This document shows positions 25,646 to 63,423 of a stretch of 64,000 nt of DNA, piece by piece (position 1 is the first letter of the stretch; every line of letters begins with the position of its first letter). Source of the stretch: Limisphaerales bacterium (GTDB lineage Bacteria; Verrucomicrobiota; Verrucomicrobiia; Limisphaerales; SXTU01); assembly GCA_009773355.1 (NCBI GenBank), contig WRPG01000012.1, positions 1 through 64,000 of the forward strand, given 5' to 3'. Made by a program: the position numbers and the translations under genes. The notes under the pieces are model-generated. The model worked only from the letters and a program-made list of their open reading frames with translations, ran no database searches and had not been told where the DNA came from.

Positions 25646-25898
25646 GGGGAGAGGGAGTCGGGGCATGAGCGCCGATGCACAGGCATTAACTTTGCCAGCG
25701 TCCGCGAATCGGGCCGGAAAAATCTTCACGGCGAAAACTAAATTCCTTGAGCGATTCATCTTCGCGCCGATACTTGCTCCGACGACGGCGAACGCGTTGA
25801 AAACAACGGACGCCGGTTCTTTCAAAGCGATTTCAGATTTGCCCTGCCCTGTTCGTGCTTCGCAGACCAAGTCCTTGAACCGTAAGTTAACAACTCTC

Positions 25899-26025
25899 GG
25901 GGCCTTAACTTCAACGGCGGCTGTCAGGCCTTCACTGGAAGGCAAAAGCCGCTGATTCGGCCCCACCTGTTTCTCGAGCAGTTCAACAGGAACGGTTCGC
26001 ACACGGCAATGGCGGGGCTTTTTTT
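25899..26025 (+). ncRNA. Possible structured RNA upstream of a terminator
   Basis: Three nested stems are perfect: GGGGCC 25899-25904 with 25959-25964, GCGGCT 25917-25922 with 25947-25952, and GCCTTC 25928-25933 with 25938-25943 around an ACTG loop. A further CCTGTT/AACAGG hairpin (25966-25990) and a T7 run (26019-26025) follow, and then a terminator hairpin. This arrangement on the plus strand suggests the 3' part of a non-coding transcript, but the 5' end is unknown and it matches no RNA family I can recall. Confidence 0.3.
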
Positions 26026-57333: not shown

Positions 57334-57384
57334 GCCAAAGCGCTGCCGTTGACGACGCGTCAGTGCCCGGCCCAAACTCCGCGC

Positions 57385-59550
57385 GTGAACCAAATTGCCT
57401 CCCCATTCACGCGCCACCTTGCTCCCGCCGTGCTGAAGCCGGCCGGCCTCCTATCCGCGATCTGGCTGCTCTGCGCTTGCTTGCCGGCGGCGGAGCCAGC
57501 TCCCAAGCCCGTCAAAACCGTCCGCCTGCTGACGGTGGGCAACAGTTTCTCGGCAAACGCCACGCGGCAGCTCGGCAACCTCGTGACCAACGCGGGCCAT
57601 GTGCTCATTCACCAGCCCATCGTGGTGGGCGGAGCGTCGCTGGAGCTGCACTGGGGCCGGGCGGCGGCGTTTGAGAAGGACGCCACCAGCACCAACGGCC
57701 TCTACTCGAACAAGCAAAGCCTGCGGCAGATGCTCGGCGCGCAGCCGTGGGACTTCGTCACCATCCAGCAGGCGAGCCTCAAGAGCCACGATGCCGCGAC
57801 TTACCGGCCGTTCGCGAAGCAGCTTCACGACTACATCAAGCAGCACGCGCCCAAGGCCGAGGTGTTGATGCACCAGACCTGGGCCTATCGCGTGGATGAC
57901 CCGCGCTTCGCCGTCGCTGCGCCCAAGGCCGGCGAGCCGAAGACGCAGGCCGACATGTATCGGATGCTCACGAGCGCCTACACGACCATCGCCGCCGAGT
58001 TGGGCCTCCGCCGTCTCCCGGTGGGCGACGCCTTCTACTTCGCCGACACTGACCCAAAGTGGGGCTATCAACGGGACGCGAAGTATGACTTCAAGGACAA
58101 GGCCCAGACCGCGTTGCCAGAACAAAAGCACTCGCTCCACGTCGGCTGGCGCAGGGCGAAGGGCAAGGACGGCAAGGAGTCGCTCGGCATGGACGGCCAT
58201 CACGCGAACATGGCCGGCGAGTATCTGGGCGCGTGCGTGTGGTATGAAGTGCTCTTCGGCGAGAGCGTGGTGGGCAATGGGTTCGTCACGCCGGGGCTGG
58301 ACAAGAGTTACGCGCGTTTCTTGCAGGAGACGGCGCACAAGGCGGTCATGGCCTCGGCGAACCGAAAATTATCGTCGGCAAACGGCCCTGACTGGACCGC
58401 ACAGGCGCTCGCCGACGCCAAACAGGACCGCACGAGCATCCCCTACGACGGCAAGACGCCGAACAAGCTCGTGTGCGACACCACGCTGCGGCTGTTGCCC
58501 GACGGCTCGTGGGCGCTCTTCATGCTGGCCGGCGATGACTTCGAGCCGTCGCCGAAAAACTACGTCGGCCTCACACGCAGCAAAGACGAGGGCCGCACCT
58601 GGACACCGCTGGAGCCGGTGGAAATCGGCTTCCCGCGCGAGGGCAAGACCAGCGGGCAGGGGCCAACCGAGCTGCTCGTGCGCGGCAGGCGCAGCACACT
58701 CTTCTTCTCCACGCACTCGCAGACGTGGGGCCGCGACTGGCAGTCGTGGTTCATGCACAGCGACGATTCGTGCCGGACGTGGAGCAAGCCCGAGCCGGTG
58801 CCGGGCCGCCTCGGCAAGTTCACCTTCATCCGCAACCACATCGTCGCGCGCGACGGGCGCATCATCCTCCCCTTCCAGCACTACCTCGGTCCGCCCGCCG
58901 GCACGCCGCCGCCCGCGCCGGAGGAGAAGCCGTGGCACAAGACGCTCTTCCATTACGTCAGCAACCCGCGCAACGGCGTGCTCATCAGCCGCGACGGCGG
59001 CAAGACCTGGAGCGAGCACGGCAACGTGCGCCTCACCGACAACGACCGTTATCACGGCTGGGCGGAGAACAATCTCGCCGAACTCAGCGACGGCCGCATC
59101 GCGATGATCATTCGCGCCGACCGGCTCGGCGGCGTGCTCTACTACGCGGAGTCCAAGGACGGCGGGAAGACGTGGCCGGAGTTCGCCGTGAAGACGGACA
59201 TCCCCAACCCCGGCTCGAAGGCCACGCTCTACCCGCTGGGCGGCGACACGGTCGCGATGCTGCACAATCCGAACCCCACGCACCGCAGCCCGCTGGCGTT
59301 GTGGATTTCCTTCGACGGCCTCAAGACCTGGCCCTACCGCCGCGTGCTCGTGCCCGAGTCCTGCGACGGCCCGAAAGGCCGGCTGAACTACCCCGACGGT
59401 TTTGTGAGCGGGGACAAGCAATGGCTGCACTTCGCCTTCGACGACAACCGCCACCGCGCCGTCCACTACAGCGCCAAGCTGCCGCCGGCGCGCACGAATA
59501 CAAGGTCATCCCCCGCAACTCCCGTGGCGACGGCCCGGAGAGCGCGGTGA
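57385..59550 (+). CDS. SGNH (DUF4886-like)/sialidase fusion with an altered C-terminal tail
   Basis: About 721 residues from GTG 57385; TTG 57349 is an alternative. After a signal peptide, residues about 40-310 are a DUF4886/SGNH-like domain ([39 protein letters not shown]). Residues about 350-700 are a sialidase propeller with Asp boxes ([32 protein letters not shown]). The last 25 residues are Arg/Thr/Pro-rich and out of phase with a fibronectin-like tail encoded in another frame at 59487-59570. Confidence 0.87.
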
Positions 59551-59570: not shown

Positions 59571-59724
59571 TTCCTCCCCTCCCTCGCCCTCACGGGACGG
59601 CGACCAGCCTTTCGGCCTGTGGAGCGACACCGTGCAAATCGCGGTGCAGGGGTGAGAGGACGCCACTCTACCACTGAAGGGGCTCGCAGCAGGAGCCGCA
59701 CAATCGGTCCCACCAGATGAACAG
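59571..59724. repeat. Repeat-rich spacer before the ATPase gene
   Basis: No gene. It contains CACCG-N9-CGGTG (about 59628-59646) and other short inverted repeats. A segment resembling a tRNA D-arm (TCAGTGGTAGAG on the minus strand) has no matching acceptor stem and is not called a tRNA. Confidence 0.5.
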
Positions 59725-61719
59725 CTACTCTGAAAACTGCTTCAACTTGTCCTCGAAAAATCCAAACGAGAGCCGCAACATCTGAAAGTCATCTTCGGCT
59801 ATTAGCTTCGCGTGAGCATCGGCGCGGTGCTCGTTAATCAGCTCAAGGTGACGAAGTGCCTTGTTTTGGTCAGGGCCGATGATGTGTTTGAAGCAATCCC
59901 AATGCTTCGAGATCATCTTCCTCAAATCTTCCCAATAAATCTGGCCCTTCTCTGGGCTAAAGAGCTCGGAGTATTCAAGACCAGCGAGCGTCGTGTTCCG
60001 CGCTTTTCCAAAGATGTCGAGAACCTTCTGCTTTGCGTCGGCGTTGCCGTAGAACACTTGGAGCATATTGCGGCAAAGCAGGCGCAGCTTGGGTTCGAGC
60101 TTGTTTCTTCGCTCTGAAATCTCGGCCCATTTCTCCTGGTTCGTGAGATTAAGTCTTTGAAAGCGCGCTTCGCGGGATAAAAACTCCTTTAGCGCGTCCA
60201 CCCGGAACACGAATTCGTCTCCTTGAAGTTCAATGATGCCGTAGCCTTGCAAATGCTCTGTGTAAGCAGGGTCAGCAGTTGCGAAAAGGTCGAAGGATTT
60301 GTGGTCGCCTAAGGCTAAGAATTTTAACATTTCATACTCATTGGGGTAGTGCTCCCTCAAGACAATGAGGATCATTTCGAAATAACCACGCCCTTCCCGG
60401 ATAAACTGCTTTTTCGCCTTCTCATAGAGCGCCTTTCCGACTGCGACAGGGCGCTGAGAATCTGCGATTCGATGGATCGCACTGCAAAGATGCCGGATGA
60501 GATAAGGGTGCCCACCAAAGTCTTCGGTCAACTGAGAGTAAACGAATTCATCAAAATCCAACCCCATTAACCTTCCAAGCCGTCGCACCATTTCCCGAGT
60601 TTGAACTGATGAAAAGCGCGGAATGTAAATGCGAGGAAATTGGGCGAAAATCGGATTGTCTACGTCCTTAATTTTCGGCTGTTCATTGCAGCGCGGATTT
60701 GTCCCAACGATGAGGTAGCTGAACAAGCCGGACTTGCGCTGAAACAACGAGCGCATCGTTTGCCAGAAAAGGACAAAATCCAAATCGTCACGCCAGTGCG
60801 CCGAGGGGGACAAGCCGGGCGAAGCGTTCTCAATCTCATCGAAAGTGAGAAGAATCGATTTCTTCCCGACGGCTTCGTGCAGTTTGAGAAAATACTTCTC
60901 AAACAAGTCAGCCGCCCGTTCCGGTGTGAATTCCGATTCGAGCCCGAGACGGACGTCAGAACCGCAGGCAGCACGCGCCTCGTTTAAGACATACCAGAGT
61001 GCCTGATTCCAACGCCGTTGGTGAAAGGCTGGCGTCTGGCAGTCAATGAACGCTGAGTAGAAGCCATGAGCCGCAAGTGCTCTCTGGACGCCGTAGATCA
61101 CTGAAGTTTTCCCTGCCTTTCGCAGGCCGAAAAGTGCAGAAACTTGGTCCGTTCGATGCCGATCGACAAGTTGGTGAATTAAGTCTGTCCTGCCGAAAAA
61201 GAATAAATCAGTTTTGAGGGGCGATTCAGATGCGAAGAGGTCACGGGTGTAGAAATGTGCGCGCAGTCTATTCCGGAAAAAGTGCGTGTCCGCGTTTGGA
61301 CGCCTCAACTCCGAATAAGTAAACGGGACGACAATCTGGGCTTCGGTATCATTTTGCAATAGCTGCCGGAGTTTCTGCTCTGAAGCTTCATCTTTGCTGA
61401 CAACCAAGCTGCAAATCCTGTCCACCCGTAAATGAGGGAAATGGGATTGCGCCTTGCCAATTGCGTCAAGTATCCGCGGGTGAAAGTCGTCGTAAGGGCT
61501 GAACACGCACACCAACTCGCGCTCAAGGTTAAAGGCGTGTTGCAGATTGTCTGTGGGCTTAACCAGAATGAATTTGTAGGTGCTTGCTTGAGTAAAATGC
61601 AGCGCGTGACCGCTGTTCGTCACATACCACTCCTTCGAAATAGTGTTGATGATCGCGCGTTCGTCGTGGTCGAACTGCGCGAGGTTAAAGTCTTTGTGGA
61701 TTCCTGGTGTCGTCGCCAT
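59725..61719 (-). CDS. STAND/AAA-type ATPase with HEPN-like C terminus (candidate defence protein)
   Basis: A 664-residue cytoplasmic protein of about 50 % GC DNA, against about 65 % around it. Residues 1-165 form an alpha/beta domain I do not recognise (ELVCVFSPYDDFHPRILDAI). The ATPase has Walker A GLRKAGKTS (198-206) and Walker B ILLTFDEIEN (289-298), and a GGHPYLIRHLCSAIHR lid typical of STAND-like ATPases. The C-terminal 125 residues are helical and end with LELINEHRADAHAKL, resembling the Arg...His motif of HEPN RNases (Swt1 type). Such pairings occur in abortive-infection systems; the assignment is inference. Confidence 0.8.
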   Translation of the reverse strand: MATTPGIHKDFNLAQFDHDERAIINTISKEWYVTNSGHALHFTQASTYKFILVKPTDNLQHAFNLERELVCVFSPYDDFHPRILDAIGKAQSHFPHLRVDRICSLVVSKDEASEQKLRQLLQNDTEAQIVVPFTYSELRRPNADTHFFRNRLRAHFYTRDLFASESPLKTDLFFFGRTDLIHQLVDRHRTDQVSALFGLRKAGKTSVIYGVQRALAAHGFYSAFIDCQTPAFHQRRWNQALWYVLNEARAACGSDVRLGLESEFTPERAADLFEKYFLKLHEAVGKKSILLTFDEIENASPGLSPSAHWRDDLDFVLFWQTMRSLFQRKSGLFSYLIVGTNPRCNEQPKIKDVDNPIFAQFPRIYIPRFSSVQTREMVRRLGRLMGLDFDEFVYSQLTEDFGGHPYLIRHLCSAIHRIADSQRPVAVGKALYEKAKKQFIREGRGYFEMILIVLREHYPNEYEMLKFLALGDHKSFDLFATADPAYTEHLQGYGIIELQGDEFVFRVDALKEFLSREARFQRLNLTNQEKWAEISERRNKLEPKLRLLCRNMLQVFYGNADAKQKVLDIFGKARNTTLAGLEYSELFSPEKGQIYWEDLRKMISKHWDCFKHIIGPDQNKALRHLELINEHRADAHAKLIAEDDFQMLRLSFGFFEDKLKQFSE

Positions 61720-61851
61720 AGCGTATTCAGAGTTCGACTAGCGTTCTGACTAACCGTTTACAAGCAGCCGTGCCTGGCTGACTGCTGTCCTGTCTTTTCC
61801 AAGAGTCCATGCGGCACGGCACTCATGTCGAAGTGGAGTCTTGCTCCACCT

Positions 61852-63423
61852 TCACGCCCAATACCGGTAGTTCACGTCGGGGAAGAGGTTGTCCAGCCAC
61901 TCGATGCGCGTGAGCCACGGTTCGTCCACGCGCGTGAGGGTGAGCATCTCGTGCAGGGCGATGAAGCGCAGGAGGTGGTCCTTCACCCGCTTGCGCGCGT
62001 AGTCCGGGCTGGTGCCGGTGCGCAGGATGAAGGGCCAGTCGCTGGATTGCGCGAGGAGGAGTTCGCGCGCGGCCTGGTTCAGCGCGCGGAGGGTGAGGCC
62101 GGCGGCCTCGGGGTGCGCGCGGGCCAGGGCGGTCATGCGCTCCTGCGCCACGGTCAGGTGCGGGAGAATCCACTCGTTGGTCTCGTTGAGCCAGAGTTTC
62201 CAGTAGCCTTCCTCGCCCCAGCTCGACGGGCTGGGCCGGACGATTTGCAGGGTGGCGTTTTCCTTCAGGTAGTCGCTGGGCGTGACGAACTTGAAGTCCT
62301 GCTGGTCGTAGTGGGCCTTGCGCACGAAGAGGTCGAGGAAGTCGGGGCCTTCATACCACCAGTGGCCGAACAACTCGGCGTCGTAGGGCGCGACGATGAG
62401 CGGCGGACGGTCCATGATTTCGCCGAGCTTGCGGGCCTGCTCGCGGCGGGCGTCGAGGAAGTGGCTGGCGTGGTCCTCGACGGCCGCCAGCGCGAGGGCG
62501 CGGTCATAGACTTCCTTGTCGGGCGTGGGGCCGGTGATGCGGCAATACTTGAGGCCGGTGAAGCCGCGCAGGTCCGGGCTGGGCAGATAGGGGCGGACGT
62601 AGTCGAAGTCGAGGTCGAAGCCCACGTCGCGGTAGAAGTCGCGATAGCGCGGGTCGCCGGGGTAGCCCTCGTTGCGGCTCCAGACCTGGCGGGCGGATTC
62701 GAGGTCGCGCGCGAAGGCGGCGATGCCGTTGGGCGTGAGCACGGGGGCGAAGACGCCGTAGCGCGGGCGCGGGCGGGCGTGCAGCAACCCGTGGGTGTCC
62801 ATGATGAACCAGCGGATGTTCGCCTCCTGCAACACGGCCTCGACGCCCTCGACGTAGGCGCATTCGGGCAGCCAGATGCCGCGTGGGTCGCAGCCGAAGC
62901 AGCTCCGGTAGTGGTCGCGCGCGGTGAGGATTTGCGCGCGGACGGAGGGCGGATGATTCAGCAACGGCAAGAGCGCGTGCGTGGCGGCGGTGGTGATGAT
63001 TTCGAGCCGGCCGGCTTCCTGGAACTTGCGGAACGCGCCGACGAGGTTGCGCCCGTAGGCGAAGTAAGTCGCGCGCAGGCTGGTGAGCCGCTGGTGATAC
63101 ATCCACGCGAGCTCGCGAAACTCGCGGTCCCAGTGCGTGCGGTGGATTTCCTTGTCGGCGAGTTCGAGCAGGCCTTCGAGATGCCGCACGTAGCGGTCTT
63201 GCAGGAGCGGGTCCAGGAGCATCGCGCAGAGCGTGGGCGAGAGCGTGAGCGTGAGGCGCGTCTCCATGCCGAGCGCCTGCCAGCCTTCCATCACTTGGAT
63301 GAGCGGGAGGTAAGTCTCCGTGACCGCCTCGAACAGCCAGCTCTCTTCCAGAAAGCGGTCGTGCTCCGGATGGCGCACAAAGGGCAGGTGCGCGTGCAGC
63401 ACGAGGGCGAGGCGGCTTTGCAT
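61852..63423 (-). CDS. GH57 1,4-alpha-glucan branching enzyme
   Basis: A 523-residue protein, the usual length for GH57 branching enzymes. Motif 1 LVLHAHLPFVRHPE, motif 3 GIWLPECAY with the nucleophilic Glu, and motif 4 APYDAELFGHWWYEGPDFLD with the catalytic Asp are present. A C-terminal helical domain follows. The enzyme introduces alpha-1,6 branches in glycogen-like glucans in the cytoplasm. No other glycogen gene is in the window. Confidence 0.94.
   Translation of the reverse strand: MQSRLALVLHAHLPFVRHPEHDRFLEESWLFEAVTETYLPLIQVMEGWQALGMETRLTLTLSPTLCAMLLDPLLQDRYVRHLEGLLELADKEIHRTHWDREFRELAWMYHQRLTSLRATYFAYGRNLVGAFRKFQEAGRLEIITTAATHALLPLLNHPPSVRAQILTARDHYRSCFGCDPRGIWLPECAYVEGVEAVLQEANIRWFIMDTHGLLHARPRPRYGVFAPVLTPNGIAAFARDLESARQVWSRNEGYPGDPRYRDFYRDVGFDLDFDYVRPYLPSPDLRGFTGLKYCRITGPTPDKEVYDRALALAAVEDHASHFLDARREQARKLGEIMDRPPLIVAPYDAELFGHWWYEGPDFLDLFVRKAHYDQQDFKFVTPSDYLKENATLQIVRPSPSSWGEEGYWKLWLNETNEWILPHLTVAQERMTALARAHPEAAGLTLRALNQAARELLLAQSSDWPFILRTGTSPDYARKRVKDHLLRFIALHEMLTLTRVDEPWLTRIEWLDNLFPDVNYRYWA

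Follow-up and report, generated by a model that had tools for sequence, protein, structure and literature searches.

A horizontally acquired STAND ATPase gene with a predicted C-terminal HEPN domain as a candidate single-protein anti-phage system

Introduction

Fusions of Swt1-like HEPN domains with STAND ATPases were listed in a computational survey in 2013, and none of them was characterised there (Anantharaman et al. 2013; PMC3710099). According to that survey, HEPN domains are marked by an Rx4-6H motif, frequently accompanied by Ex3[KR], which is named for many HEPN families; families lacking the Arg or the His are also included. The prophage-encoded HEPN RNase Tha responds to a phage tail protein and loses its activity when the motif His is mutated (PMC11087260). 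A precedent among STAND proteins is Avs4, which was found bound to a phage portal (8DGF).

We have analysed a stretch of 64,000 nucleotides (the window) of a Limisphaerales bacterium (contig WRPG01000012.1). An initial annotation, made from the sequence alone, described one of its genes as a lone, lower-GC gene for a STAND/AAA ATPase with a HEPN-like end and as a candidate antiviral effector. Our analysis indicates that the gene probably encodes a single-protein anti-phage system of the abortive-infection type, which would act as an NLR-like switch with a predicted HEPN RNase.

Results

The gene and its insertion site

The ORF has the boundaries given in the initial annotation, starts with ATG and encodes a protein of 664 amino acids:

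59725 to 61719, minus strand: complete gene, single-gene candidate defence protein (ORF, full-length homologues, GC and GC3 anomaly)

By sequence inspection, the gene is flanked by a sialidase-like (BNR) gene at 57349-59550 on one side and a GH57-type gene at 61852-63423 on the other, and neither an integrase nor a known defence gene was found beside it. The description as a lone gene therefore holds, and the chromosomal context of this copy is free of satellite genes. The lower GC content was confirmed as well: it is 50.5% in the gene and 66.0% in the rest of the window, while GC3 is 60% compared with 92% and 89% in the two neighbours. Among all 1995-bp stretches of the window that do not overlap the gene, none has a GC content within 2 points of it. 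The window gene is a single, horizontally acquired gene. Elsewhere in the window, a 6S RNA gene is located at 25838-26022 (Rfam RF00013, 65 bits).

The gene was absent from all 10 congeners searched. In congener G394, 118 bp are found between the GH57 gene and the next gene in place of about 2.2 kb in the window, and the last ~60 bases of the G394 gene next to GH57 survive at window positions 59596-59656. The interval in question is the following:

59657 to 61846, no strand: interval without a counterpart in congeners, between the end of the remnant coding sequence (59596-59656) and the 3' end of the GH57 gene

The remnant, which adjoins the acquired gene, corresponds to the 3' terminus of a gene that in G394 ends with ...DGDQPFGQWSDTVQIAVRG. 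Divergence at the joints prevents an exact placement of the ends of the acquired segment, and the search for direct repeats flanking the insertion yielded only weak pairs at chance level. The region downstream of GH57 varies between the congener genomes. At the same site, congener G389 carries ORFs resembling PIN-type and RES-type toxins (L095:3702-4871), which suggests that this site is variable in the genus.

Relatives and horizontal transfer

In tblastn searches, Klebsiella IncF plasmids proved to carry full-length homologues with about 35% identity, and plasmids of Deinococcus, Qingshengfaniella and Nostoc to carry weaker ones; the phage GenBank records searched contained none. An alignment-based scan of bacterial genomes gave 49 loci with full-length matches of up to 55% identity, and 12 loci were found in viral contigs. 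A genome scan with the single sequence had found no relative, which must be a sensitivity artefact since the alignment-based scan gave the 49 loci. Within its own phylum, the other matches in 388 sampled genomes were at most partial and weak.

The maximum-likelihood tree of 42 family members spans 13 phyla and requires at least 19 phylum changes, and the window protein clusters with sequences from Desulfuromonas, Omnitrophota and Neomarinimicrobiota (98% SH-aLRT). The gene family has moved horizontally, and frequently. The gene is richer in AT than its flanks in 48 of the 49 loci (median difference 12 points), and in 32 of 36 loci no other long gene has a lower GC content, while other genes of the same loci exhibit no such trend. 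The low GC content is therefore a property of the family across its hosts and not of the genome from which the window comes.

Carriage on mobile elements

In E. coli, the family member is the only gene between int and psu in a P4-like satellite inserted at tRNA-Sec. This interval is a published hotspot of anti-phage systems (PMC9122126), and the placement holds for the E. coli homologues. The P4-satellite copies are 94% identical to the Klebsiella plasmid gene, which is itself 35% identical to the window protein. The P4-satellite homologue has the protein accession WP_021563882.1. Two of the five copies (L010:12001-14004 and L011:12001-14003) are split into two ORFs, which suggests repeated inactivation. 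A second, separate E. coli lineage (protein accession WP_097318268.1) adjoins the integrase in a remnant prophage that lies between prfC and yjjG; it is 85.7% identical to a Klebsiella chromosomal gene, and the product of that Klebsiella gene shares 42% identity with the window protein. Since the P4-satellite and prophage-remnant copies share this arrangement, the gene occurs as lone cargo beside an integrase in two distinct lineages. The homologues are not consistently members of housekeeping operons: those with the best annotation are single cargo genes, carried by a P4 satellite, by a prophage remnant and by plasmids.

On conjugative IncF plasmids of Klebsiella, the gene has an integrase on one side and pifC on the other, with replication and partition genes nearby. 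The pif locus is the T7-exclusion locus of the F plasmid. This arrangement is seen at L002:11971-16549 and L003:11971-17857, and the K. variicola plasmid has an additional P-loop NTPase gene after pifC; this stretch of homologue, pifC and NTPase genes is possibly a plasmid anti-phage block. The related STAND proteins of Nostoc plasmids (L006:3793-8516 and L007:5368-8513), one of them with an added NACHT, are each directly followed by a second ATP-binding gene, and these pairs are possibly a two-gene variant.

The location of the Klebsiella copies on conjugative plasmids, close to the genes for replication and partition, together with the further copies on Qingshengfaniella and Deinococcus plasmids, would also suit exclusion of plasmids or of other elements, in which the same switch and RNase would respond to competing plasmids or to conjugation. 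We regard this explanation as unlikely: carriage by P4 satellites, prophages and viral contigs points to phage competition, and anti-phage genes are common on plasmids too.

No recurring partner gene was found in the neighbourhoods scanned. The initial annotation had proposed a search for homologues in defence islands, and the neighbourhood scans of the relatives gave a mixed result. PADLOC families gave 316 matches in genes within 4 kb compared with 70 in an equal number of proteins from genes more than 5 kb away, but a few proteins supply most of these matches and many of the neighbours are housekeeping genes. The excess is weak support only, because the totals are dominated by a few proteins with many matches.

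Domain architecture

The AlphaFold2 model of the whole protein, built on an alignment of the window sequence with those from the genome loci, has a mean pLDDT of 90.4 and is made up of three parts: an alpha/beta domain at the N-terminus, a STAND/AAA+ core that includes a winged helix, and a helical domain at the C-terminus. The domains and motifs are located as follows (all on the minus strand):

61240 to 61719, minus strand: N-terminal alpha/beta domain, putative sensor (aa 1-160; AlphaFold2, structural matches, conservation)
60157 to 61242, minus strand: STAND/AAA+ NTPase core with winged helix (aa 160-521; AlphaFold2, fold comparison)
61102 to 61128, minus strand: Walker A motif GLRKAGKTS (aa 198-206; G198, R200, G203, K204, T205 and S206 invariant in 42 members)
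60835 to 60855, minus strand: Walker B motif (aa 289-295; D294 and E295 invariant in 42 members)
60493 to 60516, minus strand: GGHPYLIR in the helical lid (aa 402-409; P405 and R409 invariant in 42 members)
59731 to 60141, minus strand: predicted C-terminal HEPN domain, Swt1-like (aa 527-663; all-helical in AlphaFold2, PF18731 matches of relatives)
60082 to 60108, minus strand: predicted HEPN helix-1 motif R538-x3-E542-x3-R546, which includes Ex3[KR] (invariant in 42 members)
59812 to 59826, minus strand: candidate catalytic motif R632-ADA-H636, Rx3H (H636 invariant in 42 members)

The Walker A, Walker B, GGHPYLIR and R632-A-D-A-H636 motifs noted initially are thus all present in the protein, and fold comparison bears out the assignment to the STAND/AAA ATPases. 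The core (aa 160-516) is closest to 2QEN (Z 21.7, rmsd 4.4, 323 residues aligned), followed by 2FNA (Z 19.8), ORC2, CED-4 (Z 17.7) and plant NLR resistosomes (about 17); 2QEN and 2FNA are archaeal ATPases. Relatives of the CED-4, NLR and ORC type have Z values of 14-22. The layout of NTPase, helical lid and winged helix matches that of CED-4, NLRs and archaeal STAND ATPases.

The first 165 residues had appeared to be unlike any known domain and were proposed to be a sensor or a second effector. Modelled alone (pLDDT 92.9), they indeed gave no significant Foldseek match, but a second structural comparison provided a weak lead to the restriction-endonuclease fold, the best match being EndoMS with a Z of 6.6, where values below 8 are not reliable. 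The matches were mostly proteins of this fold (EndoMS, FokI, Can2, N.BspD6I, AspBHI and Shedu), and RPB5 was also among them. E68, R82 and R98 of this domain are invariant in the 42 family members; inspection of these reveals neither a conserved D-(D/E)xK set nor a conserved ExK near E68. As the Z value is under 8 and no conserved ExK-type active site is seen, the domain is at most restriction-endonuclease-like and probably non-catalytic. Residues 1-165 may serve as the sensor. Assignments to RE_HaeII and PDDEXK_15 were rejected, each resting on a single Pfam match in one member, and so was a DACNK sensor domain, which was matched by the window protein alone (E 0.013) and by no relative.

The C-terminal part is all-helical in the confident model, with helices from 527-557 to 618-630, the Arg-His motif at 632-636 immediately preceding the last long helix, and that helix at 642-663. 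HRADAHA is present as initially described but is not terminal: 27 residues follow, mostly in this one helix. Pfam HEPN_Swt1 (PF18731) is matched by 13 of the 42 family C-termini (best E 1.8e-5), and no other Pfam family exceeds three matches among them; the runner-up among the recurring families is at three, all weak, and HEPN_SAV2148 is matched by 2 of the 42. The relative L047 scores 19.5 bits against PF18731, below the cut-off of 27.5, and the window protein itself has no Pfam HEPN match. Taken together with the invariant Ex3[KR], the helical model and the sequence profiles of the relatives support the identification of the C-terminal domain as HEPN, in line with the HEPN-like end of the initial annotation.

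R538, E542, R546 and H636 are conserved in all 42 members, N629 in 39 and R632 in 38. The Arg-His spacing of three noted initially is correct for the window protein, and its Rx3H falls outside the typical Rx4-6H; some relatives have a spacing of four. Rx3H occurs in 38 members and Rx4H in 8. Four of these 8 carry both motifs, while the other four, three rhizobial relatives and Hymenobacter, lack R632 and have the Arg one position earlier, which makes them Rx4H only. Because some relatives have Rx4H, the short Rx3H is a variant inside a family which also uses the usual spacing.

Four sister proteins (L071:550-2730, L072:7815-9941, L073:3-1292 and L048:9401-11578) share the N-terminal and STAND parts and have another C-terminus with an invariant Rx4H (RNERDH, RNKFCH, RHSQDH and RNYYQH). 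Comparison of profiles revealed no similarity between the window-type HEPN and these C-termini, and for this reason we do not claim that they are the same domain. The different C-terminus of the four sister proteins suggests that the effector may have been exchanged.

The shortened Rx3H, the weak structural resemblance of residues 1-165 to EndoMS, FokI and further proteins of the restriction-endonuclease fold, and the existence of HEPN domains without the full motif (PMC3710099) would be in agreement with a non-catalytic HEPN, serving in RNA binding (e.g. of a phage transcript) or dimerisation, and with the N-terminal domain as an effector acting on DNA. Such an arrangement seems quite unlikely, however, since H636 and R538/E542/R546 are invariant in the 42 members and the Arg is retained, three or four positions being its spacing from the His, whereas the N-terminal domain has no visible conserved D-(D/E)xK set and is shortened in the alignment in several members, the true starts of which are uncertain.

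Discussion

Under the preferred reading, an anti-phage protein with a HEPN RNase, the resting protein would be an autoinhibited, nucleotide-bound STAND switch. A trigger, either derived from the phage or caused by infection, would be sensed, most plausibly by the N-terminal alpha/beta domain together with the winged-helix/lid region. Nucleotide exchange would then allow the STAND cores to oligomerise, as in CED-4 and in plant and bacterial NLRs, and the oligomer would pair the C-terminal HEPN domains as dimers, whose R632/H636 sites may cut RNA (tRNA, rRNA or mRNA). In this way, translation would be halted before the release of phage. A MalT-like regulatory STAND ATPase with a host function and transferred by chance is very improbable, for although transcription regulators such as MalT (8BOB among the fold matches) also have STAND cores and metabolic genes flank the window copy, the scanned neighbourhoods contain no recurring partner, the HEPN residues are invariant, and the gene is present in satellites, plasmids and viral contigs and absent from the congeners.

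No model of PADLOC or NCBIfam covers the window protein, and a sequence search of the PDB gave nothing useful. In the papers searched, neither the accession numbers nor the combination of STAND with HEPN led to a named system, and no experiment on a member of the family turned up; the HEPN systems of DefensePredictor, a machine-learning screen of 2026 (PMC13092281), could include a relative. Some relatives match the PADLOC candidates PDC-S01, PDC-M34B and PDC-S27 (best E 6e-9), whereas the window protein matches PDC-S01 with E 0.021 over aa 176-221 only, i.e. the Walker A region. As the match is limited to this region, these candidates are not considered the same system on present evidence.

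If the anti-phage reading is true, the family provides a compact, single-gene, NLR-like immune protein distributed over at least 13 phyla and not called by the defence-gene libraries used. Its versions in the E. coli P4 satellite, the E. coli prophage and the Klebsiella plasmid make it testable in laboratory strains, and the variation between Rx3H and Rx4H is a natural experiment on how far a HEPN active site tolerates change.

Among known systems, the DUF499/Ava_2192 proteins of BREX-related/Hma systems (PMC3710099; PMC12839542) likewise join a HEPN domain of the Abi2/Swt1 group to an AAA+ ATPase. Their HEPN domain is N-terminal, however, and the ATPase works alongside a methylase and a helicase, in contrast to the lone gene with a predicted C-terminal HEPN found here. 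HEPN defence RNases such as Tha (PMC11087260) resemble the family in consisting of one protein, in being prophage-borne and in having a C-terminal HEPN, the RNase activity being shown for Tha and predicted here. Tha differs in its size of 301 amino acids, in having no reported ATPase domain and in its canonical RNSIMH (Rx4H).

Avs, bNACHT and other bacterial NLR-like STAND systems are similar in that a phage trigger is presumed to make their STAND switch oligomerise and activate an effector. In Avs4, the effector is N-terminal and the TPR sensor C-terminal, unlike in the window protein, where the effector would be C-terminal and the putative sensor N-terminal, with no region of the model left for TPRs. 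Avs4 (8DGF) has 1541 residues, compared with 664 here. More tentatively, the protein may represent a widespread, unnamed one-protein bacterial NLR of reversed polarity, in which a non-catalytic N-terminal sensor derived from a restriction-endonuclease fold acts through a STAND switch on a HEPN RNase at the C-terminus whose active site is a contracted Rx3H; the sister clade would have retained sensor and switch and exchanged the effector.

The Swt1-like HEPN-STAND fusions (PMC3710099), e.g. Npun_F6454 and MED222_16016, have the same pair of domains, a HEPN of the Swt1/Abi2 group and a STAND ATPase. By their description, on which this comparison is based, they are listed with TPR or S1 domains, and the Rx4-6H given in that survey contrasts with the Rx3H of the window clade.
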